Source: an uncultured Eudoraea sp. | GTDB taxonomy: Bacteria > Bacteroidota > Bacteroidia > Flavobacteriales > Flavobacteriaceae | Length of the DNA stretch: 64,000 bases | NCBI RefSeq assembly: GCF_947260015.1 | Contig: NZ_CAMYOM010000034.1 | Coordinates: 1 to 64,000, forward strand | Direction: 5' to 3' | Part shown: positions 33,136 to 51,747 of the stretch, piece by piece | Layout: each line of letters opens with the position of its first letter | How positions within the stretch are numbered: position 1 is the stretch's first letter | The notes under the pieces: model-generated | The model's input: only the letters and a program-made list of their open reading frames with translations | The model's database searches: none | Told to the model about the DNA's origin: nothing | Made by a program: the position numbers and the translations under genes

Positions 33136-33159
33136 TGTAACATTCCTTAAATTATCAAA
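33136..33159 (+). promoter_or_regulatory. Candidate ECF-type promoter element (TGTAACATTCC)
   Basis: TGTAACATTCC lies at 33136-33146, 37 bp before the TTG start of the first ECF sigma gene. The second ECF gene has TGTAACAATCC at nearly the same distance, and the likeness goes on with AAAT. This suggests a site read by an ECF sigma factor, perhaps by its own product. Confidence 0.5.
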
Positions 33160-33183
33160 TCTTTTATATAAAGCATTTACTTT

Positions 33184-33735
33184 TTGAGCCAAAATAAAGT
33201 ACATACTGAAGCCTTGTTACAATTGTGTCTGGAAGGTAGACAAAGTGCACAAATGGAAATTTATAATCGCTATTACAAAGCCATGTTTAACACGGCATAT
33301 AGGATAGTAAAAGACAGTGCGGAAGCTGAAGATGTTATGCAGGAATCGTTTTTAAATGCTTTTACGAAACTGTATACGTTTAAAGGGGATGTTACTTTCG
33401 GTGCCTGGTTAAAGCGCATAGTTATAAACAAAAGCATCTACCATTACAGAAAACAGCAGAAAAAGAAAGAGGTAGGATTAGATGAAATATTGTACAAGGT
33501 CGAAGATAATGATGGAATTTCTGAGGATCATGGGAGTACAGAACGAATGGCTCAAAAAGTACTCGAAACCATGAAACAATTGAAAGATAATTACAGAATT
33601 TCTTTGACCTTACATCTAATTGAAGGTTATGATTACGAAGAGGTTAGTTCAATTATGGATATAAGTTATGCGAATTGCAGGACTACCATATCAAGAGCGA
33701 AAGAAAGTTTAAGAAAAAAAATGATAAATGCTTAA
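33184..33735 (+). CDS. ECF-family RNA polymerase sigma factor
   Basis: The 183-residue protein has sigma region 2 ('YYKAMFNTAYRIVKDSAEAEDVMQESFLNAF' split over residues 24-55, with 'GAWLKRIVINKSI' following) and region 4 ('LIEGYDYEEVSSIMDISYANCRTTISRAKESL') near residues 140-175. It starts with TTG at 33184; no ATG fits the family N-terminus. It is followed 2 bp later by an anti-sigma gene and then two exported repeat proteins, so it probably controls an envelope-related group including itself. Confidence 0.9.
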   Translation: MSQNKVHTEALLQLCLEGRQSAQMEIYNRYYKAMFNTAYRIVKDSAEAEDVMQESFLNAFTKLYTFKGDVTFGAWLKRIVINKSIYHYRKQQKKKEVGLDEILYKVEDNDGISEDHGSTERMAQKVLETMKQLKDNYRISLTLHLIEGYDYEEVSSIMDISYANCRTTISRAKESLRKKMINA

Positions 33736-33737
33736 TT

Positions 33738-34298
33738 ATGAAAGAAGATCGAATAGAGGAAATGTTTAAAAGCCTGCAAGGCTCTTTTGATACAAAAGAA
33801 CCAGATACAGGTCATGAGCAAAGATTCCTGAAGAAGTTGAGCAATGAAAGTGGTGTAGTAAAACTAATCCCTAAAAAGAATAGTTGGTGGAGACCATTAT
33901 CAATAGCAGCTTCCATAATGTTGCTTTTCGCAGTTGGGGCTTCGCTTTATACTAATCAACCATCCATTGATGAACAGCTGGCTGAAATTTCTCCGGAAGT
34001 TTCGCAAACTCAGTTTTACTTTGCCAGCCTTATTGAAGACCAAATAAAAGAACTGGAGAATGAAAGCACACCTGAAACTAAGAAATTAGTGGATGACGCT
34101 ATGTTGCAATTAAATAAACTGGAAATAAACTATAAGAAACTTGAACAAGATCTTCTTAATGGTGGAAATAGTAAACAAATACTGAGTGCTATGATTACAA
34201 ATTACTCAACCCGTATAGATTTACTTCAAGAGGTTATGGACAAAATAGAAAATATTAAAACTTTTAAAAATTACGATGATGAAAACATTACTATTTAA
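33738..34298 (+). CDS. Membrane-anchored anti-sigma factor (probable)
   Basis: The 186-residue protein has an N-terminal cytoplasmic part of about 50 residues ('KEDRIEEMFKSLQGSFDTKEPDTGHEQRF' split over residues 2-30), one membrane helix around residues 54-72 ('SIAASIMLLFAVGASLY'), and a periplasmic Glu-rich helical part. This layout, directly after an ECF sigma gene, is that of anti-sigma factors, although the zinc-type HXXXCXXC motif is missing. ATG 33738 is chosen since it gives the family-like start 2 bp after the sigma stop. It overlaps the next gene by 23 bp. Confidence 0.8.
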   Translation: MKEDRIEEMFKSLQGSFDTKEPDTGHEQRFLKKLSNESGVVKLIPKKNSWWRPLSIAASIMLLFAVGASLYTNQPSIDEQLAEISPEVSQTQFYFASLIEDQIKELENESTPETKKLVDDAMLQLNKLEINYKKLEQDLLNGGNSKQILSAMITNYSTRIDLLQEVMDKIENIKTFKNYDDENITI

Positions 34299-35370
34299 AT
34301 ATACATTAATTGCACTTCTGGCTCTTCCGGTTATGGCTCTTGCCAATAATGGGGATTTAAAAGGCAAATATACCAAGGAGAAAACCATTAAGAAGGAATA
34401 TGATGTTAATTCAGATGCCTTGCTAAAAATTAGAAATAGTTACGGAAATATTACTTTGAGTTCCTGGAACGAGAATAGAGTAGTAATAGAAGTTCATATT
34501 AAAACCAGCGGTAATAACGAGTCTAAAGTACAGGAAAAGCTTGATGAAATTACAGTAGATTTTGAAGCCAGCAGTGATATGGTTTCCGCAAAAACTATTT
34601 TTAATAAAAATAAAGGAAGCTGGGATTGGAATTGGGGGAAGAGCAACAATGTGAACATGCAAATAAACTATACTATTAAACTTCCTGTAAAAAATAGTGT
34701 CCATCTAAATAATGACTATGGGAATATAATGCTGGACCGGATTGATGGCCATGCGAAAATTAGTTGTGATTACGGAAGGTTAGAAATAGGTGAACTACAC
34801 GGAAGGAATAATGAATTAAAATTCGATTACACATCCAAATCAACTATTGAATATGTAAACAGTGCTAAGATTTCTGCCGATTATTCCGGGTTTACAATAC
34901 AAAAAGCAGGAAATTTATACGTCAGTGCCGATTATACCAATGCTGCAATCGGACAAATGGAAAATTTAGAATACACCAGTGATTATGGCAAATTGGAAGT
35001 AGATGAAGCAAACAATGTACAGGGAAATGGCGACTACATAAACGTTAAGTTGGGTACCATTCACGGGAATGTGGACATTAATGCAGATTACGGTTCTGTG
35101 GGCATAGCTAATATGGCTCAGGATGCTGGAAATGTTTCAATCCGAACAGATTATACGGGCATTAAAATAGGTTATGATCCTATGTATAATTTTAATTTTG
35201 AAATTTCCACCGAATATGCCGGTGTTAGCGGGAAAGATGATTTTGATATCAGTATAAGTAAAGAGAAATCCACCGAGCGTTATTACAAAGGATTTTACGG
35301 TAGTGCAGGTAGCGAAAATATGATCTCCATAACGAGTGATTATGGAAGTATTACTTTCTCTAAAAATTAA
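34276..35370 (+). CDS. Exported adhesin-like beta-repeat protein (DUF4097-type)
   Basis: The 364-residue protein starts with a signal peptide (hydrophobic residues 5-22, cleavage after 'MALA'). The mature part is a run of short strands with recurrent 'DYG' and 'DYT' turns: 'NDYGNI', 'CDYGRL', 'FDYTSK', 'ADYSGF', 'ADYTNA', 'SDYGKL', 'GDYINV', 'ADYGSV', 'TDYTGI', 'SDYGSI'. About every 20 residues such a turn returns, as in a right-handed beta-helix. These proteins often follow ECF/anti-sigma genes in flavobacteria and are thought to be cell-surface or periplasmic. No enzyme motif is visible. The start overlaps the anti-sigma gene. Confidence 0.85.
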   Translation: MMKTLLFKYTLIALLALPVMALANNGDLKGKYTKEKTIKKEYDVNSDALLKIRNSYGNITLSSWNENRVVIEVHIKTSGNNESKVQEKLDEITVDFEASSDMVSAKTIFNKNKGSWDWNWGKSNNVNMQINYTIKLPVKNSVHLNNDYGNIMLDRIDGHAKISCDYGRLEIGELHGRNNELKFDYTSKSTIEYVNSAKISADYSGFTIQKAGNLYVSADYTNAAIGQMENLEYTSDYGKLEVDEANNVQGNGDYINVKLGTIHGNVDINADYGSVGIANMAQDAGNVSIRTDYTGIKIGYDPMYNFNFEISTEYAGVSGKDDFDISISKEKSTERYYKGFYGSAGSENMISITSDYGSITFSKN

Positions 35371-35414
35371 TCAAAACAATCAATATTAAACACTAACAAC
35401 TTAAATATTTTATC

Positions 35415-36137
35415 ATGAAGAAAATAATAACTCTAGGAATAGCTATATGCACGTTTGCCGTCACAAATGCCCAGAAAATAAAAGGAAACGGCAATGTAGT
35501 AACCATTGAACGATCTACTGACGAATACGATGCGATTGCCGTGTCTGGATGGTTTGATGTAATTCTCGTTGATGGACAAGAAGGAAAATTAAGTCTTGAA
35601 GGAGAGGAGAATTTGCTTGAACATATTAAAACTGAGGTGAAGGAGGGTAAATTGGTAATCAAAGTAAAAAAAGGTTATAACCTTCAACCTTCTTCCTGGA
35701 AAAAGGATGGTGGTATTTATGTAACTGTTCCGGTAGAGAGTGTTAGCGAAGTTTCCCTATCAGGCTCAGGTGATATATTTGGTAAAAAAACCATTTCCGC
35801 TTCAGAATTTAGCACAAGAATGTCGGGCTCCGGGGATATAACACTGGATGTAGAGTCTAATACGGTTAGCGCGTCAATGTCTGGTTCCGGAGATATCAAT
35901 TTAAGTGGTACCACTGAAGTATTTGATATTCAAATTTCGGGCTCCGGTGACATAAAGGCTTATGACCTTATAGCCGATACAGTAGATGCAAGTATTTCAG
36001 GATCTGCCGATATTAAAGTAACGGCTAATAAAATGCTGAAAGCAAGGGTATCTGGCTCCGGAGATATTCATTATCGCGGAGATGCAACAAAAATAGATAG
36101 TAAAGTTTCGGGCTCCGGGGATATTACCAAGGGATAG
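35415..36137 (+). CDS. Head-GIN / DUF2807 exported repeat protein
   Basis: The 240-residue protein has a signal peptide ending 'FAVTNAQ' and is a DUF2807 ('head GIN') protein. The mature part holds seven copies of a turn with the core SGSGDI (one is SGSAD), spaced about 18-22 residues, which should form a beta-helix. The function is unknown; a role as surface or periplasmic stress protein is inferred from the operon with the ECF sigma factor and the adhesin-like gene 45 bp upstream. The operon ends with the hairpin at 36167-36188. Confidence 0.88.
   Translation: MKKIITLGIAICTFAVTNAQKIKGNGNVVTIERSTDEYDAIAVSGWFDVILVDGQEGKLSLEGEENLLEHIKTEVKEGKLVIKVKKGYNLQPSSWKKDGGIYVTVPVESVSEVSLSGSGDIFGKKTISASEFSTRMSGSGDITLDVESNTVSASMSGSGDINLSGTTEVFDIQISGSGDIKAYDLIADTVDASISGSADIKVTANKMLKARVSGSGDIHYRGDATKIDSKVSGSGDITKG
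35757..36131 (+). repeat. Seven tandem SGSGDI-coding repeats in the head-GIN gene
   Basis: Sequence of the type TCn-GGn-TCn-GGn-GAn-AT returns at about 35760, 35825, 35880, 35938, 35998, 36051 and 36108. It codes for SGSGDI. Spacing of 54-65 bp fits one beta-helix coil per unit. Confidence 0.85.
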
Positions 36138-36162
36138 AATTACATCAAAAAACGAACAACAA

Positions 36163-37503
36163 TCATACCCTGGCGGAAACGTCAGGGTTTTTATTTACCC
36201 TGGACAGTAAAAACAATCCGCTTAGAAAAAAAAGTCCCAGGAATATGGTTGCATTTCGCATGCTTCCGGTAAACTGAGCAATAAACCCGTACAAAAAAGT
36301 GCCAATTACAATCCCTAGTTTTTCCGCAACATCGTAAAAACTAAAAAAAGAAGCTGTATCGGTTGTTTCAGGGATAAACTTAGAATAGGTAGATCTCGAC
36401 AATGCCTGTATACCGCCCATGACAATTCCCACACAACCTGCAGCAATATAGAAATCTGTTGGAGTAATTAAGAAATACGCATATATACAGATAAATACCC
36501 ATAATACATTAATGACCATAAGCGTTTTTATATTTCCAAATCTTTTTGACGCTCTTGCAGTCATAGTTGCTCCAAATATAGCTACCAACTGAATCACCAG
36601 AATGCTGACAATTAATCCTGTGGTACGTTCACTATCTGAACCCCAGTTAATCTCCTGTTCTCCAAAATAAGTGGCAATCAACATAACTGTCTGAACAGCC
36701 ATACTATATACAAAAAATGCTACCAGATATCGTTTTAGTTTTATCTCATCCCCTAATTGATGCCATACTCCTTTTAATTCCTTAAATCCATTGAAAATAA
36801 TATTTTTACGAACCCCGGTCCGCTTAACCCCTTGAGGCAGGTAATAGAAGCTATATTGACTGAATAAAATCCACCAAATACCCACTGTGACGAATGAATA
36901 TTTCATGGCTTTAATCTCTGCTACTTCAGATGCATCGCTCTCTATCCCAAAAATATCTGGTTTCATTACCATGGCCAGGTTTAATAGAAGTAAAATAACG
37001 CTTCCAATATAACCCATGGAGAATCCTTTGGCACTTATTCTATCCTGTTGTTCCGGGAAGGCAATATCCGGGAGGTAGGAATTATTAATTGCAAAACTTA
37101 CCCAGAAGCCTACAAGACCAAAAAAGTAGCAGACCAGGCCTAAATAAATATTTTCTAATGAAAACCAGTATAGCCCTATACAGGAAATTCCACCGAGATA
37201 ACAAAAAAATTTCATAAAGATTTTCTTATTACCTAAATAATCTGCAATACCTGATATTAGTGGTGTGATTAAAGCAATGAATAAAAAAGCTGCTGATGTA
37301 AGATAACTTATTAATGGAGCTCTGGCAATTTCACCGCCAAAAACCGATACTTTCTCAATATCTGCAACTCTAAACAAGGCTCCATAAAAAATTGGAAAAA
37401 TGGCGGAAGCAATTACCAGGCTATATACAGAATTAGCCCAATCATAAAATGCCCAGGCATTTAATAGTTTCTTACTCCCTTTTATTGCAAAAGTTCTGGC
37501 CAT
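36163..37503 (-). CDS. MFS permease of the UMF1 (Atg22-like) family
   Basis: The 446-residue membrane protein has 11-12 helices and the UMF1 start 'NAWAFYDWANSVYSLVI', then 'GNKKIFMKFFCYLGG' (MFS loop 2-3 area), 'FAINNSYLPDIAFPEQQDRISAKGFSMGYIGS' across residues 137-170, and 'GIVMGGIQALSRSTYSKFIPE'. The family is related to yeast vacuolar amino-acid exporters; the solute in bacteria is unknown. Its last codons lie in the terminator of the head-GIN operon. A hairpin sits 5 to 30 bp before its ATG. Confidence 0.9.
   Translation of the reverse strand: MARTFAIKGSKKLLNAWAFYDWANSVYSLVIASAIFPIFYGALFRVADIEKVSVFGGEIARAPLISYLTSAAFLFIALITPLISGIADYLGNKKIFMKFFCYLGGISCIGLYWFSLENIYLGLVCYFFGLVGFWVSFAINNSYLPDIAFPEQQDRISAKGFSMGYIGSVILLLLNLAMVMKPDIFGIESDASEVAEIKAMKYSFVTVGIWWILFSQYSFYYLPQGVKRTGVRKNIIFNGFKELKGVWHQLGDEIKLKRYLVAFFVYSMAVQTVMLIATYFGEQEINWGSDSERTTGLIVSILVIQLVAIFGATMTARASKRFGNIKTLMVINVLWVFICIYAYFLITPTDFYIAAGCVGIVMGGIQALSRSTYSKFIPETTDTASFFSFYDVAEKLGIVIGTFLYGFIAQFTGSMRNATIFLGLFFLSGLFLLSRVNKNPDVSARV
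36166..36194 (+). terminator. Terminator of the ECF/adhesin operon
   Basis: A 9-bp stem, ACCCTGGCG (36167-36175) and CGTCAGGGT (36180-36188), with one wobble pair and a GAAA loop, is followed by TTTTT. It closes the operon on the plus strand and overlaps the end of the convergent permease gene. Confidence 0.8.
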
Positions 37504-37507
37504 AAAA

Positions 37508-37534
37508 TAAAAAAACTGCTCTATATGAGCAGCT
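37508..37534 (-). terminator. Terminator or attenuator hairpin just before the permease gene
   Basis: On the minus strand CTGCTC-N5-GAGCAG (37516-37532) is followed by T7 and then the permease ATG at 37503. It can end the M48 peptidase transcript. If a promoter for the permease lies further upstream, it would instead act as an attenuator. Confidence 0.65.
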
Positions 37535-37575
37535 TCGAATATACAACTATTAGAGGAATCACTATTTTAAATAGC

Positions 37576-38391
37576 CTATTGAAATGAAGTCACGCCAAAC
37601 TTCTGAGCTTCCTGTTTTGCCAAAGGAGCCCATTGCGTTAAATTGGCAATCCTGGTCTCATTAGAAGGGTGGGTACTTAAAAATTCCGGTGGTGCATTAC
37701 CTCCTGCATTTGCCTTCATTCGTTTCCACAGTTCAGCGGCCTCATCCGGATTATAGCCTGCGATGGCCATAATCTGAAGCCCTATTCTATCTGCTTCTGT
37801 TTCATGACTACGGCTAAAAGGTAGCATAAGACCAACAGAAGAACCAATTCCATATGCCTGGTTAAATACATTTCTTGTTTTATCGTCCTGGATCGCAATA
37901 TTTCCGGCTACTGCTCCGAGTTGCTGCAAGGTGCCTGCACTCATTCTCTGTGCGCCATGATCTGCCAAGGCATGAGCCACCTCATGGCCCATTACAACTG
38001 CAACTCCTGTTTCTCCCTGGCAAATAGGCAGAATACCGGTATAAAACACAATTTTTCCGCCAGGCATGCACCAGGCATTTATAAGTGTGTCTTTTACTAA
38101 ATTATACTCCCAACGGTAATCCTTTAGATAACCGGGATATCCATTTGCCGATAACCATCTTTCAGCGGCAGAAGAAATTTTCTGTCCTACCCTGGTTATC
38201 ATTTTTGCCTCAGATGTATTCTCCAGGACATTATTTTGTCCAATAAAATCATCGTATTGTGAGAAGGCCATTGGAAAAATCTGACTGTTGGGATAAAAGT
38301 TCAATACTTTTTGTCCTGTAAAGGGGTTTACTTTACAGGAGGCAATTCCCAGTAATAATATGGATACCAGTAAAAACTTTTTAGTGCTCAT
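37576..38391 (-). CDS. M48-family metallopeptidase, lipoprotein
   Basis: The 271-residue protein has a lipoprotein signal ('LLLGIASC', lipid Cys at residue 19), then the zinc motif 'MGHEVAHALADHG' (HExxH) near residue 135 and the third ligand Glu in 'HETEADRIG' near residue 195, as in M48 peptidases of the LoiP/BepA type. Such proteins act in outer-membrane protein quality control on the periplasmic side. I start at ATG 38391; the TTG at 38406 adds five residues ahead of the signal. It follows GH31 by 34 bp. A terminator lies downstream. Confidence 0.9.
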   Translation of the reverse strand: MSTKKFLLVSILLLGIASCKVNPFTGQKVLNFYPNSQIFPMAFSQYDDFIGQNNVLENTSEAKMITRVGQKISSAAERWLSANGYPGYLKDYRWEYNLVKDTLINAWCMPGGKIVFYTGILPICQGETGVAVVMGHEVAHALADHGAQRMSAGTLQQLGAVAGNIAIQDDKTRNVFNQAYGIGSSVGLMLPFSRSHETEADRIGLQIMAIAGYNPDEAAELWKRMKANAGGNAPPEFLSTHPSNETRIANLTQWAPLAKQEAQKFGVTSFQ

Positions 38392-38425
38392 TTTATTGAT
38401 TATCAAGTATTAAAATACAAAATAT

Positions 38426-40825
38426 TTATTTCCCTATTATGTGCAATACTGTAAATTCTTTTGTTACATGTATTGTATTAGTACCATTTGGCTTTAATTT
38501 TTTAATCGGAACTATTTCATTATCTATCTCTATCTCTTTAATATTAAATGGTAAATCAATCAGATTAATTTTAAATGAGTTGTATGAAGTAATAAAAGCC
38601 CCATTTTTAAACTGCTGGATTATCAATTCATTTTTCTTACCATTCAATTTAAAATTCCTTAAGCTATAATTTCCTTTGGTGTACTCATAGCCATCCTGTT
38701 CATCCTCATAAACTGACGAATTTTCAATACCATACTTAAAGTATACATCCAGGATCAATTCTTCTATAACTTTTTCACCAACATACTGCTGGACAGGGTA
38801 TTTGGGAATTATTGCTCCTTCTTTTATAAAAATTGGAATCTTATCAATATCCGCGGCAACCCATTTCTCCATTCCTCCTTCTACAACCTCACCAGTCCAA
38901 AAGTTATGCCATTTTCCTTTAGGAATGTACATTCTTCTTCCCATTGCGTTTGGTTCCTGTATTGGACAGACTAATATTTGATCCCCAAATATAAACTCAT
39001 CAGTTCTAAAATGAGTTTGCAAATCTTCCTGATCATAATACACCAAGGGTTTAAGCATGGGTATGTTTTCCTTGGAATATTTCCAAAACATGGTATACAG
39101 ATAAGGAAGAAGTTGGTATCTTAATTCAATAAACTTCCTTACTATATTAGTCACTTCCTTATCAAATGACCAGGGTTCCTGATCCCCGTGGTCTCCACTT
39201 GAATGCACTCGGAAAAAGGGATGAAAGACACCCAATTGTATCCATCTGGCAAAAAGTTCCCCGTTGGGTTGTTCTGCAAATCCTCCTATGTCTGAACCAG
39301 TAAAGGACATACCACTCATACACATTCTTTGTACCTGTACATTGGCAATCCACAAATGTTCCCAGGTAGCAACATTATCACCTGTCCAGGTTGAGCTAAA
39401 ACGCTGGGCGCCTGCATATGCAGCCCTCGTTATAACAAAAGGTCGTTTGGGGTAAACATATTTTTTAACACCTTCATAGGTCGCCCTTACCATTTGAGTG
39501 CCATAAATATTATGAGCCTTTCTATGACTACAACGATGACCATCAAAATCGTGTCTGGTATCTAAAGGGGCTGTTTTTGATGGAACTTCCATTATCGCAG
39601 GTTCATTCATATCATTCCATACGGCATGGACCCCCGTTTCCGCTATTAGTTCTTTATAGAGTCCTGCCCACCATTTTCTAACCTTTGGATTCGTAAAATC
39701 AGGAAAACTACATGCTCCCGGCCAAACTTTACCGCGCATTATAGGGCCATCTCCCCTTTTACAGAAATAATCATTCTCCAAAGCTTCCTGATAAACCCAA
39801 TAGTCTTTATCTACCTTTATTCCCGGATCTATCATGACCACAGTTTTAAAGCCGTCTTTATATAGATCCTGAATCATGGCTTTAGGATCAGGAAATTTTT
39901 TCTTGTCCCAGGTAAAACAACGAAATCCATCCATATAGTCTATATCGAGATAGATAGCATCACAGGGAATTTTAAGGGATCTGAATTTCCTGGCAATTTT
40001 CTTAACATTGCTCTCCGGAAAATAACTCCATTTAGATTGATGAAAGCCCAATGCCCATAGTGGTGGGATTTCCGGTGTTCCGGTTAAATCTGTATATGCT
40101 TTTACTACTTTGGACATTTCAGGGCCATAAAAAAAGTAGTAATTCATTTCTCCACCGTCTGCCCAGAAACTGGTTATATTTCTTCTTTCATGAGCAAAAT
40201 CGAAATGAGTTTCAAATGTATTGTCAAAAAATATCCCGTAGGCAATATTATTGTGAAGTCCAACAAAAAAAGGAATTGCCTTATACAACGGATCCTGATC
40301 TTTAGTATATGCATATGAATCTGTAACCCAATTGCTTACCCTTTTCCCTTTTAGATTGGAGTGTGTGGCCTTATCGCCCATTCCGTAAAAGCTTTCGGCA
40401 GTTTGAGTGATTTTGCTCATCTTTACCGAATTACCCCCAAATTCGTAATTCTCCTCCCAGTGAAAACCAAGTTCATCCTCATTTATAATTTTCCCTTCTA
40501 AATCTGAAATCTGGGTTCGCATGGTTTTCTTATCAACCAGAACGATAATCTTAGAAGTAAAAATTAAATATTCTGTTTTGGTTTCTTTGTATTCAAGCTT
40601 GTTATAACCCCTGCTGGCATCGGGACTTATTGCATATGAAAAATCTGGTTGAAAAACTTCCTCTGTAGCATATCTGAATCGTATAGCGCTATTGCGCAGT
40701 ACCGTTATCTCGAGCACAACACCATTCTCTGAAGTAAAATAAAATTTATCTGAATCGCGCTTAAATTCTACAATACTGTTCGGGTATAAATTGCCTTTGT
40801 ATTCTAATTCTGTATTGGTAATCAT
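38426..40825 (-). CDS. GH31 family alpha-glucosidase
   Basis: The 799-residue protein is a glycoside hydrolase family 31 enzyme. Its catalytic nucleophile is the Asp in 'WNDMNEPAI' near residue 405, the acid/base is Asp in 'TWTGDNVATWEHL' near residue 480, and 'LDIDYMDGFRCFTWD' is the substrate-site signature. The N-terminal galactose-mutarotase-like domain and C-terminal beta-domains are present. No signal peptide is seen, so it acts in the cytoplasm, probably on maltose, maltodextrin or glycogen ends. It lies 100 bp after glgB on the same strand, with an 18-bp palindrome between. Confidence 0.93.
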   Translation of the reverse strand: MITNTELEYKGNLYPNSIVEFKRDSDKFYFTSENGVVLEITVLRNSAIRFRYATEEVFQPDFSYAISPDASRGYNKLEYKETKTEYLIFTSKIIVLVDKKTMRTQISDLEGKIINEDELGFHWEENYEFGGNSVKMSKITQTAESFYGMGDKATHSNLKGKRVSNWVTDSYAYTKDQDPLYKAIPFFVGLHNNIAYGIFFDNTFETHFDFAHERRNITSFWADGGEMNYYFFYGPEMSKVVKAYTDLTGTPEIPPLWALGFHQSKWSYFPESNVKKIARKFRSLKIPCDAIYLDIDYMDGFRCFTWDKKKFPDPKAMIQDLYKDGFKTVVMIDPGIKVDKDYWVYQEALENDYFCKRGDGPIMRGKVWPGACSFPDFTNPKVRKWWAGLYKELIAETGVHAVWNDMNEPAIMEVPSKTAPLDTRHDFDGHRCSHRKAHNIYGTQMVRATYEGVKKYVYPKRPFVITRAAYAGAQRFSSTWTGDNVATWEHLWIANVQVQRMCMSGMSFTGSDIGGFAEQPNGELFARWIQLGVFHPFFRVHSSGDHGDQEPWSFDKEVTNIVRKFIELRYQLLPYLYTMFWKYSKENIPMLKPLVYYDQEDLQTHFRTDEFIFGDQILVCPIQEPNAMGRRMYIPKGKWHNFWTGEVVEGGMEKWVAADIDKIPIFIKEGAIIPKYPVQQYVGEKVIEELILDVYFKYGIENSSVYEDEQDGYEYTKGNYSLRNFKLNGKKNELIIQQFKNGAFITSYNSFKINLIDLPFNIKEIEIDNEIVPIKKLKPNGTNTIHVTKEFTVLHIIGK

Positions 40826-40899
40826 AAAGGGAAATTTTAGAGACCCACAAAAAAAAGACTTTAACTTTTAATAGAAAAACGATATTACAACCAATTATG

Positions 40900-40917
40900 A
40901 ACTATAACGTTATAGTT
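40900..40917. promoter_or_regulatory. 18-bp palindrome between glgB and the GH31 gene
   Basis: AACTATAACGTTATAGTT is a perfect palindrome, with an outer CCAAT/ATTGG pair further out (40891-40895 and about 40928-40932). A symmetric site of this size upstream of an alpha-glucosidase gene looks like an operator of a dimeric regulator. It has no loop and no T-run, so a terminator is less likely. Confidence 0.5.
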
Positions 40918-40925
40918 GGCTATAT

Positions 40926-42821: not shown

Positions 42822-42831
42822 AATTATGTTG

Positions 42832-44466: not shown

Positions 44467-44468
44467 TC

Positions 44469-46292
44469 TTAATTTTTAATATGAAACAAATGAAATGGCA
44501 ATGCTGGGTGTAATTCTACAAAATTCCACTCATCATACCAAAGATAACTATTGTCCGTGACAAGATCATGCACGGTAACCCCTTGTTCAATATTAAGGGA
44601 TAAGTCGCCAATGGGAAGTTGCAGCATTCCTCGTTGCGAATAATGCGAGTCAAGATTAATTACAACCAAAACTTCATCCGATTTATCTTCGTTCCATTTA
44701 TAGAATGCCAATAGATGGTGATTCTCAATATTGCAAAACCTGATATTGTTGGTTTGTTGTAATGCTTCATGATTTTTCCTGGCCTGGTTTAAACGAGTAA
44801 TGATTAGGATTAATTTATTTTTAATAGACCAATCCCAAAATTTCACCTCATATTTTTCTGAATTCAGATACTCTTCTTTTCCTGGCATGGCATCAGAAAT
44901 CATATACTCAAAAACTGGCCCGTATATTCCAATATTACCACATAAAGTCGCCGCCAGAGCATAACGGGCAATATGCATGGCCTCATTAGCCCCTTGCAGA
45001 TGATATGGGTTAATATCCGGAGTATTAGGCCAAAAATTTGGACGGTAATATTCCTTCATCTCTGTTTGGGTCAACTCCTGTATATATTCTATGATTTCGT
45101 GCTTGTGAACCCTCCATGTAAAATAAGTGTATGACTGCGAAAATCCCTGCTTGGCCAACTGCTGCATCACCTTAGGTCTGGAAAAGGCTTCCGCTAAAAA
45201 AAGTACATCGGGATGTTTCTTTTTAACCTCAGCAATTAACCAATTCCAAAAATAATATGGTTTGGTATGAGGATTGTCTACCCGAAATATTTGTACTCCC
45301 AGTCCAACCCATTTTAGCGTCACCGACAACAGTTCTGACCAAAGTTCTTTAAATGCCGGAGATTCAAAATGGAAGTTTACTATATCCTGATATTTTTTAG
45401 GTGGATTCTCGGCATACTGGATAGTACCGTCCGGTCTTTTTCTGAACCATTCCGGATTACTGGATATGTACGGGTGATCAGGTGCTGCCTGAAAAGCCAA
45501 ATCCAATGCAATTTCCAAATCCAGTTCTTTAGCTTTTTTCATAAGACTTTTAAAGTCTTCCTCGGTACCCAGTTCCGGATGTATTTCCTTATGTCCTCCA
45601 AGCTTAGAACCTATTGCCCATGGCACCCCAGAATCTCCTTCCTGGGCATTTGTAGTATTGTTTTTTCCTTTTCTGTTAACTTCACCAATTGGGTGTATCG
45701 GGGGTAAATAAAGTACATCGAAGCCCATATCAGCTATTTTAGGCAGTAATCGCTGGCAATCATTAAAAGAGCCATGTTTTCCATTCACAGGGGAAGATGA
45801 CCTTGGAAAAAATTCGTACCAGGTACTGAAATTTGCTTTAAGCCTGTCCACATAAACCTGAAGGTCCTCACTGGTATTAGCCAAAACACGATTTGGATAT
45901 TTAACAAATAACTTATGTAGTTTATCTGAAATAGCCTGTTTAACAACATTTTCATATAAATCTTCATTTTGAAAAGATTCAATTAAATCATCTATATACT
46001 TCTTATCAGCAGAATTTATCTTATTTGACAAGGTTTGCAAATGTTGAACACCGTCTAGAAGTTCACTGTTAACCTGCTGATTATCTTTTAACTTGGCCTC
46101 AATACCATGTTGCCAGTTTTGAGCATGATCTACCCATGCTGAAATTCTGTAAATATAAAAGCCCTGCTTGAGTACTTTAAAGGAAACCCTATGGACATCG
46201 TTGCCAAGGTGTTCCATACGTGCAGTTTTAAATGATTTCTCGGATGAGTGTTTGTATTGTAGTTCTGCCTGGATTATATCATGTCCATCCAC
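44469..46292 (-). CDS. glgE: Alpha-1,4-glucan:maltose-1-phosphate maltosyltransferase, short N-terminus
   Basis: GlgE transfers maltosyl units from maltose 1-phosphate to glucan ends. The 607-residue GH13_3 protein has 'FSTWYEFFPRS', 'GFDVLYLPPIHPIGEVNRKG', nucleophile D339 in 'FRVDNPHTK', acid E368 in 'FLAEAFSRP' and 'FWPNTPDINPYHL'. The 29-residue distance between D339 and E368 equals that in the Streptomyces enzyme (394 and 423), but numbering is 55 lower. The start is GTG, with an in-frame stop four codons upstream, and the usual first beta-strands of domain N ('RV-IE-V-P---G-YP-K') are not found. So the N-terminus is truncated, or a frameshift or deletion removed it. Confidence 0.88.
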   Translation of the reverse strand: MDGHDIIQAELQYKHSSEKSFKTARMEHLGNDVHRVSFKVLKQGFYIYRISAWVDHAQNWQHGIEAKLKDNQQVNSELLDGVQHLQTLSNKINSADKKYIDDLIESFQNEDLYENVVKQAISDKLHKLFVKYPNRVLANTSEDLQVYVDRLKANFSTWYEFFPRSSSPVNGKHGSFNDCQRLLPKIADMGFDVLYLPPIHPIGEVNRKGKNNTTNAQEGDSGVPWAIGSKLGGHKEIHPELGTEEDFKSLMKKAKELDLEIALDLAFQAAPDHPYISSNPEWFRKRPDGTIQYAENPPKKYQDIVNFHFESPAFKELWSELLSVTLKWVGLGVQIFRVDNPHTKPYYFWNWLIAEVKKKHPDVLFLAEAFSRPKVMQQLAKQGFSQSYTYFTWRVHKHEIIEYIQELTQTEMKEYYRPNFWPNTPDINPYHLQGANEAMHIARYALAATLCGNIGIYGPVFEYMISDAMPGKEEYLNSEKYEVKFWDWSIKNKLILIITRLNQARKNHEALQQTNNIRFCNIENHHLLAFYKWNEDKSDEVLVVINLDSHYSQRGMLQLPIGDLSLNIEQGVTVHDLVTDNSYLWYDEWNFVELHPALPFHLFHIKN

Positions 46293-46414
46293 GTTGTTGT
46301 CTTAACATAATAATTAGTTAGTTGGGTTTTTGTTAAAAATAGGAAATTATCTGAAATACATTACCCAATAGCCTCAATTTTTGCCGAATTACAAGATAAT
46401 CCTTTAGTATAATC

Positions 46415-46422
46415 TATTTTTG
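46415..46422 (+). promoter_or_regulatory. -7 box upstream of the collagen-like gene
   Basis: TATTTTTG matches TAnnTTTG, 95 bp before the ATG at 46517. No TTG at the right distance was found. It lies in the 224-bp divergent space between glgE and this gene. Confidence 0.35.
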
Positions 46423-46516
46423 GAACGCTTTTTGTTTCCTGGGTTAAGACAATATGTAAAATTTTAAAGAATTAAAAATACAGACTTGAAATATTAATCA
46501 TTAAACATTTACAATT

Positions 46517-47071
46517 ATGAAAAATATCAAACTACTTTTTGGCGCATTTTTAGCTTTAATTATTCTGTCCTGTGAAGGGCCGATAGGACCTCCTGGACCT
46601 CCTGGTTTTGATGGTTTAAACGGCGCGGACGGGGTTAATATTTTAGGACAGGTCCTTGAGATTGAAGGCACTTTTGATGCCGGAAATGAATATTCTCTAT
46701 TTTATGAATTTCCACAGACAATAGAAGTTTTCGAATCTGATGTTGTATTAGTTTACATTTTATGGGATGTTGCGGAAGATGGTAATGGAGAACCCCTCGA
46801 TATCTGGCGGTTATTGCCTCAAACTCGTATTTTAGCCCAAGGATTGCTTCAATACAATTATGACTTTACATTTCTGGATGTAAGTGTCTTTTTAGAATCA
46901 GATTTTGACCTTGGAACCCTTACCCCCGAATATACAGATAATCAAGTGTTTAGAATAGCCATTGTGCCGGCTGAATTTGCCCAATCCGCTAAAATGGATA
47001 CTTCGAATATTGGGGAAGTTATGAGCAGCTTAAACATAAGGGAAATAGATATTAGCAGAATACAATTGTAG
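46517..47071 (+). CDS. Collagen-like lipoprotein
   Basis: The 184-residue protein has a lipoprotein signal ('LIILSC', Cys near residue 19) followed at once by seven Gly-X-Y triplets (from 'GPIGPPGPPGFDG' to 'GADGVN'), then a domain of about 140 residues with beta-type pattern and acidic surface. Short collagen-like stalks placing a globular domain above the outer membrane are known in Bacteroidota lipoproteins. Function is unknown. It ends at a strong terminator. Confidence 0.8.
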   Translation: MKNIKLLFGAFLALIILSCEGPIGPPGPPGFDGLNGADGVNILGQVLEIEGTFDAGNEYSLFYEFPQTIEVFESDVVLVYILWDVAEDGNGEPLDIWRLLPQTRILAQGLLQYNYDFTFLDVSVFLESDFDLGTLTPEYTDNQVFRIAIVPAEFAQSAKMDTSNIGEVMSSLNIREIDISRIQL

Positions 47072-47096
47072 TAGCATCTATAAATTAAAGAAAAAT

Positions 47097-47127
47097 TATC
47101 CCCGCAATATTAATGCGGGGATTTTTT
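47097..47127 (+). terminator. Terminator after the collagen-like gene
   Basis: The stem ATCCCCGCA...TGCGGGGAT with a 6-nt AT-rich loop (47098-47121) is followed by T6. It is a clear intrinsic terminator. Confidence 0.9.
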
Positions 47128-47204
47128 TATGAAGTTATCCTTAACTTTGAAAGGTTTTGAGTTAAAAACAGTCAAATAAATAGAAAAAGAAAAATTAAAT
47201 TAGT

Positions 47205-47705
47205 ATGAAAAAGTATGTATGCATTATCCTTTTGATTTCCATGGGATGCAAAGGGGTTTCACAGGAAAAAGAAGTAGTTACTGTGGAAGGGGAAGAACAA
47301 ACAGAAGCATTTAAAGTAGTGAAATCTGAACAGGAATGGCGTAAAGAACTTACAGAAATGCAATTTTATATTCTCAGAAAAGCCGGTACTGAAAATGCCG
47401 GATCCAGTGAGTTCTTAAAAAATAAAATGGCAGGGACATATGTCTGCGCAGGATGTGGAACAGCTTTATTTAACAGCGAACATAAATTTGATTCGGGTAC
47501 GGGCTGGCCAAGTTTCGACAGAGAAATTGAGGGGAACGTAGCGTTTGATGTAGACTACAAAATTGGGTATAAAAGAACCGAAGAGCATTGTGCAGTTTGT
47601 GGTGGCCACCTTGGCCATGTATTTGAGGACGGCCCCCGGGAAACCACCGGACTGAGACATTGTATTAACGGAGCAGCCTTACAGTTTGTGCCTGAAGCGC
47701 AATAG
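47205..47705 (+). CDS. msrB: Exported peptide-methionine (R)-S-oxide reductase MsrB
   Basis: MsrB reduces the R isomer of methionine sulfoxide in proteins. The 166-residue protein has the two zinc CxxC pairs 'CAGCGTALF' and 'CAVCGGHLGHVF' and the catalytic Cys in 'RHCINGAAL'. 'GWPSF' is the substrate-loop motif. The N-terminus has a short hydrophobic stretch ending 'SMGC', which may be lipidated, so this copy probably works in the periplasm; the lipobox is not ideal. It is followed 54 bp later by the DinB-like gene. Confidence 0.93.
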   Translation: MKKYVCIILLISMGCKGVSQEKEVVTVEGEEQTEAFKVVKSEQEWRKELTEMQFYILRKAGTENAGSSEFLKNKMAGTYVCAGCGTALFNSEHKFDSGTGWPSFDREIEGNVAFDVDYKIGYKRTEEHCAVCGGHLGHVFEDGPRETTGLRHCINGAALQFVPEAQ

Positions 47706-47759
47706 ACCACAATCTGTTAAATACAACTATTATAGGTTTTCATCCAGGCAAAGTAAAAT

Positions 47760-48224
47760 ATGAAACTACAGACAGATTACATCAATAGTTTATTATTTGA
47801 ATGCAAGCGCTATAAATCCCTTGTTGACAATACTTTTATGCAACTGGAGGCTTCAGAAATTCATTGGAAATATGATAGTTCCGGTAACAGCATTGCGATA
47901 CTGGTAAAGCATTTATCAGGGAATATGCTTAGCAGGTGGACTAACTTTCTTATGGAGGATGGTGAAAAAAAATGGAGACACAGGGACTCGGAATTTGAAG
48001 CGTCATACAAGACAAAAAAGGAAATGCTTGTTGCCTGGGAAAGAGGTTGGAACTGCTTTTTTGATGCCCTTAAACAACTAAATCCGGAGAATTTTGAAAA
48101 TAAAATTAAAATAAGAAACGAACCTCACACGCTTACACAGGCCTTAAACAGGCAATTAGCCCATTATTCCTATCACATTGGTCAAATAGTACTACTTGTT
48201 AAGACTATTAAGGGTGAAAACTGA
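47760..48224 (+). CDS. DinB-like / DUF1572 family protein
   Basis: The 154-residue four-helix protein has the metal-type histidines of the DinB/YfiT superfamily: one in 'LVKHLSGNMLSRW' near residue 48 and a pair in 'LAHYSYHIGQIVLL' near residue 136 (HxxxH). DUF1572 is its closest named family. Enzymes of this superfamily are often thiol-dependent transferases, but no reaction is assigned here. It may be co-transcribed with msrB. Confidence 0.82.
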   Translation: MKLQTDYINSLLFECKRYKSLVDNTFMQLEASEIHWKYDSSGNSIAILVKHLSGNMLSRWTNFLMEDGEKKWRHRDSEFEASYKTKKEMLVAWERGWNCFFDALKQLNPENFENKIKIRNEPHTLTQALNRQLAHYSYHIGQIVLLVKTIKGEN

Positions 48225-48331
48225 GTGTCACTTTCCATTCCTAAAGGCGAATCAAAAGCATTTAACAAAGTAAAATTCAAAGATTAATTTAAGATTCTTA
48301 ACGAAGTTTCTAAGCTTTCAATTTGGTTTTG

Positions 48332-48339
48332 TAACTTTG
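48332..48339 (+). promoter_or_regulatory. -7 box of lpdA
   Basis: TAACTTTG matches TAnnTTTG and lies 35 bp before the ATG. A TTTC 21 bp upstream may serve as a weak -33 element. This spacing and AT-rich context are typical for flavobacterial promoters. Confidence 0.55.
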
Positions 48340-48374
48340 CGACCTCATAAATCTGAATCACAAAAAATACTGGA

Positions 48375-49766
48375 ATGGGCAAATTCGATATTATTGTTTT
48401 AGGGAGTGGACCTGGAGGTTATGTAACCGCAATAAGAGCATCACAACTTGGATTTAAAACTGCTATTATAGAAAAAGAGAATCTGGGTGGTGTATGTTTA
48501 AATTGGGGATGTATCCCTACCAAGGCCTTATTAAAATCGGCCCAGGTATTTGAATATTTACAACATGCCGCAGATTACGGGCTAAAGGTAGATGGAGTAG
48601 ATAAAGACTTTGATGCAGTTGTAAAACGAAGCAGAAATGTGGCTGATGGAATGAGCAAAGGGGTTCAATTTCTTATGAAGAAAAATAAAATTGAAGTTAT
48701 TAATGGTTTTGGAAAATTGGCCCCCGGAAAGAAGGTAGTTGTTACAGATACAGAAGGTAAGGATACAGAGTATAGTGCAGAACATATAATTATTGCCACA
48801 GGAGCCAGAAGCAGGGAACTGCCGGCTTTACCTCAGGATGGGAAAAAAATTATTGGTTACCGCAAGGCTATGACTTTGGAGAAACAACCCAAGAAAATGA
48901 TAGTTGTGGGAAGTGGCGCCATAGGAATTGAATTTGCCTATTTCTATAATGCTATGGGGACCGACGTAACGGTTGTTGAATTTTTACCAAATATTGTTCC
49001 CGTAGAAGACGAAGAGGTTTCGAAACAATTGGAACGCAGTTTCAAGAAAGCTGGAGTCAAAATTAAAACCTCATCTGAAGTTACTCATGTTGACACCTCC
49101 GGAGAAGGAGTTAAAGCTACCGTAAAAACCCTCAAAGGAGAAGAAATTCTTGAAGCCGATATAGTGCTTTCTGCAGTGGGCATTAAATCAAATATTGAAA
49201 ATATTGGCCTGGAAGAAGTAGGTATAGCTACCGATAGAGATAAAATTCTTGTAAATGATTTCTACTTAACCAACATCCCGGGTTATTATGCCATTGGCGA
49301 TGTTACCGCCGGTCAGGCACTTGCACATGTTGCTTCTGCCGAGGGTATACTTTGTGTGGAAAAAATAGCCGGAATGCACGTAGAACCGCTAGATTATGGG
49401 AATATTCCCGGTTGTACCTACTGCATGCCGGAAATTGCGTCTGTTGGCCTCACAGAGAAACAAGCTATAGAAAAAGGCTATGAACTCAAAGTTGGTAAAT
49501 TCCCTTTTTCTGCAAGTGGTAAAGCACAAGCTTCGGGGAATGCCGATGGTTTTGTAAAAGTGATTTTTGATGCAAAATATGGCGAATGGTTAGGTTGCCA
49601 TATGATAGGTGCCGGTGTAACAGATATGATTGCGGAGGCCGTGGTTGCACGGAAATTAGAAACAACTGGTCATGAAATCCTGAAGGCAGTTCACCCACAC
49701 CCTACGATGAGTGAAGCAGTAATGGAAGCTGTCGCAGAGGCCTATGGTGAAGTTATACACCTCTAA
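48375..49766 (+). CDS. lpdA: Dihydrolipoyl dehydrogenase (E3)
   Basis: The 463-residue flavoprotein reoxidises dihydrolipoamide of 2-oxoacid dehydrogenase complexes with NAD. The FAD motif 'VLGSGPGGYVTAIRA' is followed by the redox disulfide in 'GGVCLNWGCIPTKALL', the NAD motif 'VVGSGAIGIEFA', 'YAIGDVTAGQALAHVA', and the C-terminal active-site 'HPHPTMSEAVMEA'. It stands apart from genes for E1 or E2, so it may serve several complexes. It has a promoter-like TAACTTTG box. Confidence 0.97.
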   Translation: MGKFDIIVLGSGPGGYVTAIRASQLGFKTAIIEKENLGGVCLNWGCIPTKALLKSAQVFEYLQHAADYGLKVDGVDKDFDAVVKRSRNVADGMSKGVQFLMKKNKIEVINGFGKLAPGKKVVVTDTEGKDTEYSAEHIIIATGARSRELPALPQDGKKIIGYRKAMTLEKQPKKMIVVGSGAIGIEFAYFYNAMGTDVTVVEFLPNIVPVEDEEVSKQLERSFKKAGVKIKTSSEVTHVDTSGEGVKATVKTLKGEEILEADIVLSAVGIKSNIENIGLEEVGIATDRDKILVNDFYLTNIPGYYAIGDVTAGQALAHVASAEGILCVEKIAGMHVEPLDYGNIPGCTYCMPEIASVGLTEKQAIEKGYELKVGKFPFSASGKAQASGNADGFVKVIFDAKYGEWLGCHMIGAGVTDMIAEAVVARKLETTGHEILKAVHPHPTMSEAVMEAVAEAYGEVIHL

Positions 49767-49789
49767 CAAAGAAAATTCATTAGATTTTG

Positions 49790-50077
49790 ATGCTTAAAAC
49801 ATTTCGAGTTAGCGCGATTCTGGAAGGTATTTCCTATTTGCTTTTATTTAGTTTTAGTATGCCCTTGAAATATTGGGCAAACATCACTGAACCTAATGTT
49901 TATATTGGTTATATACATGGCTTTTTGTTTATAGCTTATATGATTTTTGGTTTAACCTTTGCTATGGAAAGGAAAATAGCTCCTAAAAAAATTGTCATGC
50001 TTGTGTTGGCTTCTCTTCTGCCTTTTGGTACTTTCTACATGGACGAGAAATATCTCAAACCTCTTTCATCACTATAA
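49790..50077 (+). CDS. DUF3817 small membrane protein
   Basis: The 95-residue protein has three membrane helices with the DUF3817 pattern 'FRVSAILEGISYLLLF', 'MPLKYW', 'GYIHGFLFIAYM' and 'LLPFGTFYMDEKYL'. The family is found widely and has no known function. I start at ATG 49790 instead of the TTG one codon before. It follows lpdA by 23 bp and overlaps the end of aroQ by 6 bp on the other strand. Confidence 0.82.
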   Translation: MLKTFRVSAILEGISYLLLFSFSMPLKYWANITEPNVYIGYIHGFLFIAYMIFGLTFAMERKIAPKKIVMLVLASLLPFGTFYMDEKYLKPLSSL

Positions 50078-50485
50078 AAAACTTCGGATTGCAAGTTCAT
50101 AACTTTTCAATCCAAAACCCAAAATAACCCCTTTGGCACCGGAAGAGATATAGGAGACATGTCTGAAGTCCTCACGTTTGTGAGTATTAGAAATATGAAC
50201 TTCAACCACAGGAGTATTAATTGCTTTTACAACATCACCCAAACCCACAGAAGTATGGGTATAAGCAGCTGCGTTAAGTATGATCCCGTCATAGGAAAAA
50301 CCAACTTCCTGTATTTTATCTATGAGTTCTCCTTCTATATTGGATTGATAATATTCCAGCTGTAGTTCACTAAATTTTGACTGAAGTTCTGCAAAGTAGG
50401 AATCAAAGGTTGTACTGCCATAGACTTCAGGTTCTCTTTTTCCCAGAAGGTTAAGGTTTGGGCCGTTTATAATAATAATTTTCAT
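50072..50485 (-). CDS. aroQ: 3-dehydroquinate dehydratase, type II
   Basis: AroQ removes water from 3-dehydroquinate in the shikimate pathway. The 137-residue length and 'IIINGPNLNLLGKREPEVYG' start are diagnostic; catalytic Tyr lies in 'VYGS', 'EGELIDKI' and 'ILNAAAYTHTSVGLGD' follow, and 'VEVHISNTHKREDFRHVSYIS' holds His and Arg of the active site. I use ATG 50485, since the 17 codons upstream are not family sequence. It is divergent from xerD. Confidence 0.95.
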   Translation of the reverse strand: MKIIIINGPNLNLLGKREPEVYGSTTFDSYFAELQSKFSELQLEYYQSNIEGELIDKIQEVGFSYDGIILNAAAYTHTSVGLGDVVKAINTPVVEVHISNTHKREDFRHVSYISSGAKGVILGFGLKSYELAIRSFL

Positions 50486-50691
50486 AAGGCTAAAAGTAAT
50501 AAAATGTATAGTGCAAAAAAAGCACATGAAATACACTTCGTTTTTAATGTTGTTCTAGCTAGTTATTCCGTTGATTTACTCGTATATCAAAACTGGTTAA
50601 ACCCGTTTCTTTAGCAAGCTGTAATTCTTAATCAGCAGGATAAAAAAACTCTAATCATAAAATTAAAAGAAACAAGCAATATCTTTATACT

Positions 50692-51591
50692 ATGAATTGG
50701 AATAAGGCCATAACAGATTTTGAATACTATTTAAAGATAGAAAGAGGTTTAGCGACTAATTCCATTAGCAATTATATAAGGGATGTTGAAAAATTAAAAT
50801 TATTCCTGAAAAATAATGGAATAGATAAAACTCCTATATCCCTGGATCGTGAAACCTTGCAACTCTTTATCTATGAAGTGGCCAAAGAGGTGGGGCCAAG
50901 ATCTCAGGCCCGCATAATTTCCGGATTAAAAAGTTTTTTTAATTATTTAGTTTTTGAAGATTACCGAAGGGATACTCCTTTAGATTTAATAGAATCTCCC
51001 AAAATAGGCCGAAAACTGCCAGATACACTTTCTACAGAGGAAATAAACAGTCTTATTAACGCTATTGATTTATCTAAACCCGAAGGTGAGCGTAACAGAG
51101 CCATGTTGGAAACACTCTATGGATGCGGGCTAAGGGTCTCAGAATTGACCGGACTCAGGATATCCGATCTATTTTTTGAAGAAGATTTTATTAAAGTGAC
51201 CGGAAAGGGAGATAAACAGCGTTTTGTTCCAATAAGTGATGTAAATAAAAAATATATCAACATCTACCACAAACAGGTTCGCAGTCATCAACTAATTCAA
51301 AAGGGATTTGAAGATATTCTATTTCTCAATCGAAGAGGAAAGCAACTTACCCGTGCTATGCTTTTTACTATCATCAAACAACTGGCTATCAAAATTGGTC
51401 TTTCAAAAAGTATTAGCCCGCATACCTTCAGACATTCATTTGCTACACATTTATTGGAAAATGGCGCCGACTTGCGCTCTATCCAGCAAATGTTGGGCCA
51501 CGAAAGTATTACCACTACGGAAGTATATATGCATTTAGACAGAACACATCTGGCTGAAGTGGTTAACAAATTTCATCCAAGACAAAACTAA
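50692..51591 (+). CDS. xerD: Tyrosine recombinase XerD
   Basis: XerD with XerC resolves chromosome dimers at dif. The 299-residue protein has the N-terminal SAM-like domain ('FEYYLKIERGLATNSISNY') and the catalytic residues Arg in 'GLRVSELTGLRISD', His and Arg in 'SPHTFRHSFATHLL', His in 'MLGHESI' and Tyr in 'TEVYMHLD'. The length and lack of nearby repeats or cargo fit a housekeeping Xer rather than an integrase. No dif-like 28-bp site was recognised in the window. Confidence 0.93.
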   Translation: MNWNKAITDFEYYLKIERGLATNSISNYIRDVEKLKLFLKNNGIDKTPISLDRETLQLFIYEVAKEVGPRSQARIISGLKSFFNYLVFEDYRRDTPLDLIESPKIGRKLPDTLSTEEINSLINAIDLSKPEGERNRAMLETLYGCGLRVSELTGLRISDLFFEEDFIKVTGKGDKQRFVPISDVNKKYINIYHKQVRSHQLIQKGFEDILFLNRRGKQLTRAMLFTIIKQLAIKIGLSKSISPHTFRHSFATHLLENGADLRSIQQMLGHESITTTEVYMHLDRTHLAEVVNKFHPRQN

Positions 51592-51692
51592 TTACTATCT
51601 TCTCTTTTCCTTTATAATCAATGGTTTTAAATCTTTAGATGAAGTATTTCATTTGTTCCGGAAAAAATATGTTTACATTTTATGTGAAAGCA

Positions 51693-51716
51693 TGTAACAA
51701 TCCGGAAATAAAACCT
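51693..51716 (+). promoter_or_regulatory. Candidate ECF-type promoter element (TGTAACAATCC)
   Basis: TGTAACAATCC lies at 51693-51703, 44 bp before the GTG start of the second ECF gene. It matches the element before the first ECF gene in 10 of 11 bases, and AAAT follows at the same distance. A TTCCGGAA palindrome (51656-51663) and TCCGGA (51701-51706) also lie here. Confidence 0.5.
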
Positions 51717-51747
51717 ACTAATAGTTAATTTACTACCAACCCGAAGC

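Follow-up and report, generated by a model that had tools for sequence, protein, structure and literature searches.

We describe two putative self-regulating promoters in a 64,000-nucleotide stretch of DNA from an uncultured Eudoraea sp. (positions 1 to 64,000 of contig NZ_CAMYOM010000034.1, assembly GCF_947260015.1; hereafter the window), each standing directly before a gene for an extracytoplasmic function (ECF) sigma factor. The genome to which the window belongs is 3.42 Mb in size, is of Flavobacteriaceae type and contains 22 matches to the Pfam domain Sigma70_r2. The first gene, ECF1, occupies 33184..33735 on the forward strand and encodes 183 amino acids (aa) from a TTG start, and the second, ECF2, occupies 51748..52242 on the same strand and encodes 164 aa from a GTG start. 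Both proteins contain sigma regions 2 and 4 only (Sigma70_r2 and Sigma70_r4_2 in Pfam), in agreement with a preliminary description of the two genes as ECF sigma factors, and the nearest named relatives of ECF2 are found in Eudoraea genomes, at 87-97% identity. The same 11-mer lies ahead of both genes on the forward strand, as TGTAACATTCC at 33136-33146 and as TGTAACAATCC at 51693-51703, ending 37 bp before the TTG at 33184 and 44 bp before the GTG at 51748; both the placement and the two distances are exactly as first described.

Each sigma gene is followed on the forward strand by an open reading frame (ORF), at 33738..34298 behind ECF1 and at 52247..52891 behind ECF2, whose position makes it a candidate anti-sigma gene, and ORFs with similar starts are found behind the two sigma genes in relatives. 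We propose that each 11-mer carries the -35 portion of a promoter of ECF type, which drives both the sigma gene behind it and the neighbouring candidate anti-sigma gene, with the form AA(C/G)TGTAACA-N16-ATCTNTA before ECF1 and TGTAACA-N15-CTACTNAT before ECF2, a proposal that we consider very probable. It is likely that each sigma factor reads its own promoter, which would make both genes autoregulated.

A common -35-like box and two distinct -10-like boxes

The upstream regions of orthologues were compared across 120 sampled Flavobacteriaceae genomes, which represent 119 genera. The ECF1 set comprises 87 genomes from 86 genera (match at E<=1e-40), and the ECF2 set comprises 102 genomes from about 100 genera, after the two weakest (G016 and G080) of 104 matches at E<=1e-25 were set aside. 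No more than 110 bp from the match start, TGTAACA is present before 85 of the 87 ECF1 orthologues, with TGTCACA in the other two, and the 102 regions upstream of ECF2 orthologues contain TGTAACA in 82 cases, TGTAAC in 95 and GTAAC in 99. The adjacent 110 bp further upstream, used as a control, contain TGTAAC in only 3 of 87 and 3 of 102 cases, and the reversed word occurs upstream of none of the ECF1 and two of the ECF2 orthologues. A separate set of 80 named loci from close relatives of ECF2 gave a similar picture, with TGTAAC in 76 and CGTAAC in the remaining four. The -35-like elements of the window are placed at 33136..33142 (ECF1) and 51693..51699 (ECF2), both on the forward strand, and the AAC of this box, as part of TGTAAC, is present before both genes and nearly all of their orthologues.

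By raw counts the 11-mer is ordinary, and it is its placement that is unusual. With up to one mismatch it occurs twice in the window, against a mean of 3.99 in shuffled sequences, and its exact form occurs six times in the whole genome, against five occurrences of the reversed pattern. Coding ORFs contain four of these six copies; the remaining two are the ECF sites. The genome scan proposed in the preliminary description found no enrichment, all of the non-coding copies precede ECF genes, and the motif did not prove to be common in intergenic DNA, being found outside coding ORFs at these two sites alone. Raw counts, unenriched in both window and genome, were rejected as evidence. Their chance level is what favours a chance origin of the likeness, an explanation rendered scarcely credible by conservation before orthologues and refuted for TGTAACA itself. 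It stands, by contrast, for the extensions of the likeness that had been noted further downstream. The letters of TGTAACA-N-TCC-N2-AAAT-N-A do occur in both window sites, but only TGTAACA is conserved in orthologues, the form that includes the TCC, TGTAACANTCC, being retained in 7 of 87 ECF1 regions, 1 of 102 ECF2 regions and 3 of 80 named ECF2 loci. The later likeness CT-N2-TA was out of register by 3 bp, the second box in register being ATCT at 33159-33162 for ECF1 and CTACTAAT at 51715-51722 for ECF2. TCC, AAAT and CT-N2-TA were consequently rejected as parts of the site, being unconserved or out of register.

A second box, as conserved as the first, lies about 16 bp past the -35 box. When the regions are aligned on TGTAAC, with its first T as position 1, ECF1 orthologues have AA(C/G) ahead of the -35 box and ATCTNTA at positions 24-30 (T25 in 96%, C26 in 98% and T29 in 95% of 85 sequences), and ECF2 orthologues have CTACTNAT at positions 23-30 (A25 in 98%, C26 in 97% and A29 in 97% of 95). 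The two boxes are in one register, with A and T exchanged at positions 24, 25, 29 and 30. The combination T25C26..T29 is found before 79 of 87 ECF1 orthologues and none of the 102 for ECF2, and A25C26..A29 before 93 of 102 ECF2 orthologues and none of the 87 for ECF1, leaving eight ECF1 and nine ECF2 orthologues with neither type; the 80 named ECF2 loci have AC..A in 72 cases and TC..T in none. The corresponding elements of the window, both on the forward strand, are ATCTTTT at 33159..33165, which departs from the ECF1 family consensus in its last base (position 30), and CTACTAAT at 51715..51722, where the ECF2 family consensus is CTACTNAT. Transcription of ECF1 would begin at 33170..33171, 5-6 bp past the -10 box, where aligned sequences are strongly conserved (A35 in 95% and A36 in 89% of 85), and the same distance places the predicted start zone of ECF2 at 51727..51728, where conservation is weak (both forward strand). 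The earlier impression of autoregulated ECF promoters is supported insofar as each gene has an ECF-type promoter with -35 and -10 boxes conserved at fixed spacing before its orthologues, but the 'same site' of that description is the same in its upstream half only.

Sites, sigma genes and candidate targets across the family

Across the 120 genomes, the full ECF1-type motif has 93 matches, against 12 for its reversed form, and the full ECF2-type motif has 103, against 15; 49 and 32 of these, respectively, are the sigma genes' own sites. The remaining sites follow the distribution of the sigma genes. Genomes with an ECF2 match contain 71 non-self ECF2-type sites in 359 Mb, whereas the 16 genomes without one contain none in 32.5 Mb (expected 6.4, P=0.002). 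Non-self ECF1-type sites number 41 in 308 Mb of genomes with an ECF1 match and three in 83.7 Mb of the 33 genomes without one (expected 11.1, P=0.009), the expected numbers being taken from the non-self rate in the other genomes. The reversed controls are not depleted where the sigma genes are missing (two and five matches). In the 17 genomes that have ECF2 and lack ECF1, 12 ECF2-type sites were found in 11 genomes, the self sites included, against two of the ECF1 type.

This distribution bears on whether the promoters might instead be read by another ECF sigma factor, or through a cascade, rather than by the sigma factor encoded behind them. The 22 Sigma70_r2 matches in the genome, and TGTAAC upstream of five other sigma genes, give such a reading some room; each -10 type, however, is rare or absent where its sigma gene is missing, even though most such genomes retain other sigma genes, and we consider this explanation improbable. 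TGTAAC precedes five of the 20 other Sigma70_r2 genes of the window's genome, within the upstream sequence that was scanned, a number not compared with chance. One of the five (G000:C12:77577) has CGTCTTAT in the -10 register and another (G000:C2:17962) has CGTCTTG there. A third, the RpoD-like sigma gene G000:C15:18502, has CGTATAA in that register, and the sequence before it, TGTAACA-N15-ACGTATAAG, resembles an ECF promoter. In the remaining two the motif is separated from the start by about 100-120 bp, with no clear second box. Since it precedes these other sigma genes as well, TGTAAC looks like a general -35 element in this genome rather than a private link. A second RpoD-like gene has no such ECF-like promoter ahead of it, and two closely similar sigma genes about 1.2 kb apart (G000:C1:136754 and 137911) are apparently a tandem duplication.

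The genes behind the two motifs also differ. The inspection covered every one of the 71 non-self sites of the ECF2 type and 26 of the 44 of the ECF1 type, and a site was called promoter-positioned if an ORF began 30-150 bp behind it and no other ORF contained it. By this definition 50 of the 71 ECF2-type sites are promoter-positioned, with eight in a same-strand ORF, seven opposite an ORF and six in neither situation, and 19 of the 26 ECF1-type sites are promoter-positioned, with one in an ORF and five opposite one. Recurrent genes were grouped by phmmer, and a single member of each group was searched against Pfam. ECF2-type sites stand before stand-alone Band_7/SPFH genes (five cases), a Pfam-less ORF followed by a Band_7/flotillin-like ORF (six), a protein of about 89 aa in six genomes (loci L279, L311, L312, L340, L348 and L356; the tested member, L279, has no Pfam match), DUF4870 (five), a 446-aa protein without Pfam match (four) and DUF4199 with a glycosyltransferase (three). 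There are two cases each of LemA/TPM, AIM24, YtxH, DUF5687, an ABC ATPase followed by a further ORF, and an apolipoprotein-like protein, and single cases include an S49 SppA-like protease (Peptidase_S49), found in one genome only, and an S26 signal peptidase. These recurrent genes largely encode envelope proteins, and the 89-aa protein is a possible new small protein of envelope stress.

Behind ECF1-type sites are genes for DUF2807 proteins (six directly and one as second gene), beta-lactamase-fold proteins (three directly), DUF5694 (two) and a hydrolase (two), all as identified by Pfam. At the ECF1 locus itself, the anti-sigma candidate is followed on the forward strand by an ORF of 364 aa without Pfam match (34276..35370) and then by a DUF2807 (head GIN domain) gene at 35415..36137 (PF10988, 189.3 bits), whose domain is the one that also recurs behind ECF1-type promoters elsewhere.

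Four of the six flotillin-like pairs (loci L278, L329, L336, L350, L303 and L284) have their ECF2-type site within the end of a preceding ketosynthase-like ORF, 270-294 bp before the pair. At L303 the site has no ketosynthase-like reading frame over it and still lies 291 bp upstream, and at L284 it is 46 bp away. At two further loci (L281 and L289) the coding site is present, with no flotillin-like pair within the searched range. The site in the ketosynthase-like ORF may be either an internal promoter or a product of coding constraint.

The preliminary description had raised the prospect that the two sigma factors might cross-talk through their common site. In this view the two promoters amount to a single site that either sigma factor can read, and the circuits cross-talk; the identical -35 boxes and the alignment of the ECF1 and ECF2 proteins from region 2 to region 4 would fit it. 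The two -10 types are, however, never exchanged among the 87 and 102 orthologues, different genes lie behind the two motifs, and genomes with ECF2 alone keep ECF2-type sites and few of the ECF1 type, so that this view appears very improbable. Because the -10 halves are distinct and the genes behind them differ, cross-talk through a 'same site' is unsupported, and the sequences make cross-talk unlikely for the ECF1/ECF2 pair.

Several observations weigh against two private, autoregulated promoters as proposed here. Both anti-sigma candidates lack a Pfam match. Most of the genomes that lack ECF2 are small, so that site loss may partly reflect genome reduction, and this, together with shared ancestry, makes the P values above optimistic. 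Some of the non-self ECF2-type sites (the eight in same-strand ORFs and the seven opposite ORFs) are coding coincidences. The window's own genome offers few genes: its exact ECF2-type sites precede ECF2 itself and one DUF5687 gene, and its exact ECF1-type site precedes one DUF2807 gene, the site of ECF1 itself requiring one mismatch. A one-mismatch search of this genome gave four ECF2-type matches, against two for the reversed pattern, and 15 ECF1-type matches, against three, and of the further sites so obtained 8 of 13 of the ECF1 type and both of the ECF2 type fall within a coding ORF or opposite one. In five genomes, a relaxed ECF2 pattern gave 21 matches against eight reversed, and one further site that was checked (L386) had no ORF behind it. 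Finally, the CGT -10 regarded as a hallmark of ECF promoters is absent from both, with ATCTNTA and CTACTNAT in its place; a search for TGTAAC-N15-17-CGT in the window's genome was uninformative (41 matches, against 50 for the reversed pattern). According to a review (PMC8103513), later ECF classifications take only the two sigma domains as defining, so that the missing CGT weakens only the label 'canonical'.

The -10 box before DUF4870 genes

One target hints at how genes might pass from one sigma factor to another. In the window's genome the DUF4870 promoter reads TGTAAC-N16-CGTCTTAT, and a congener (G104) has CTACCTAT before DUF4870 where the window's genome has CGTCTTAT. DUF4870 matches were found in 86 genomes, and the 30 best loci were read: 18 have an AC..A box (ECF2-type by a loose rule), 10 have CGTC, one has both and one neither, and none of the 30 has an ECF1-type -10. 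Two of the 18 AC..A loci have the box one base nearer and three have the site about 180-200 bp away, and the -35 box is CGTAAC in 3 of the 30.

Such a series would exemplify a modular promoter code, in which a near-invariant TGTAACA -35 box is common to several ECF sigma factors and is combined with exchangeable -10 boxes (ATCTNTA, CTACTNAT or CGTCTTAT), so that genes change regulon through a few -10 bases with the -35 box held constant. We offer this code tentatively, as an idea with somewhat less than an even chance of being right. A rival account, which we hold to be less likely than not, is that ECF2 recognizes its -10 box loosely, reading both CTAC and CGTC, and that no change of sigma factor has occurred. 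In its favour, the only differences between the boxes CTACTTAT and CGTCTTAT are at positions 24-25, with C23, C26, A29 and T30 in common, but the promoter of ECF2 itself never has T25 (in 95 sequences that position is A in 98% and otherwise C, in 2%), and it is still of the AC..A type in all 10 genomes with a CGTC-type DUF4870 promoter, which indicates that the specificity of ECF2 is apparently unchanged there.

In the window's genome, CGTCTTA with up to one mismatch has 10 matches, three of them exact, against six for the reversed pattern. TGTAAC with a GTCTT-type -10 (loci L485, L487, L488 and L489) precedes genes for DUF4870, an ABC permease-like protein, a signal peptidase-like protein and a DUF2807-like lipoprotein; all but the first were judged by eye, and genes of such kinds follow ECF1- or ECF2-type sites in relatives. 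The signal peptidase gene has a CGTC-type box in the window's genome (L488, with GGTAAC) and an ECF2-type box in G091 (L326), and it may show the same contrast as DUF4870, the likeness of L488 and L326 also having been judged by eye.

Relation to known ECF systems and biological meaning

Autoregulated ECF promoters are already known as a kind. Their published hallmarks include an AAC sequence at -35, CGT at -10, a cotranscribed anti-sigma gene and positive autoregulation (PMC8103513). The promoters described here resemble these group IV sigma-70 promoters in the AAC of the -35 box, the spacing of about 16 bp, the position directly before a sigma gene and the anti-sigma candidate behind it, and differ in having ATCTNTA and CTACTNAT in place of CGT. 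Within the same family, an ECF-type motif with a CGT -10 has been derived from mapped transcription starts in Flavobacterium psychrophilum (motif SM6; PMC9723704), in a study whose main text leaves open the share of each of seven ECF sigma factors and allows that further ECF starts may remain. The SM6 genes likewise encode, among others, Band 7 proteins, an ABC ATPase and a sigma/anti-sigma pair, whereas the SM6 -10 box is CGT and TGTAAC does not appear in the main text of that paper. In Bacteroides thetaiotaomicron, of the same phylum, the SigW-1 and SigH-1 promoters are also of ECF type, with a TGTT motif near the -10 box and other targets, and that report is not among the papers in which a text search found TGTAAC (PMC12596196). 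A literature search returned, in the text it covered, no description of TGTAAC with these -10 boxes, of these regulons or of the -10 swap, and supplements may hold predicted motifs for these ECF groups.

The closest functional parallel is the sigma-W regulon of Bacillus subtilis, which has the flotillin operon yuaF-yuaG-yuaI and sppA among its targets (PMC3498285). ECF2-type sites similarly mark SPFH/flotillin (Band_7) and SppA (Peptidase_S49) genes, and differ in that they also mark DUF4870, DUF4199, LemA and AIM24. This is a likeness of function and not of membership, since against the SigW models NF007223 and TIGR02948 (cut-offs 209 and 243.1) ECF1 scores 94.9 and 80 bits and ECF2 47.6 and 44.4 bits. 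We read the ECF2 circuit as a presumed response to envelope stress that operates in the manner of the sigma-W regulon. In the mechanism we envisage, a presumed stress signal would free the sigma factor from its putative anti-sigma partner, and the freed sigma factor would transcribe its own operon, in positive feedback, together with a small regulon. The -35 box would be common to several ECF-type promoters, and the -10 box would serve as the address that separates the two circuits.

These results provide two explicit and testable ECF promoter definitions, with candidate regulons, for a large and little-studied family of marine bacteria, and they complement a transcription-start study whose main text leaves individual ECF regulons open (PMC9723704). 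They show how two sigma factors could stay separate despite a common -35 box, and in the DUF4870 promoters there is a natural series in which to study how genes change sigma factor through small changes in the -10 box. ECF1 and ECF2 appear to be self-switching genes, each with an address of its own, and not a pair under one shared switch.

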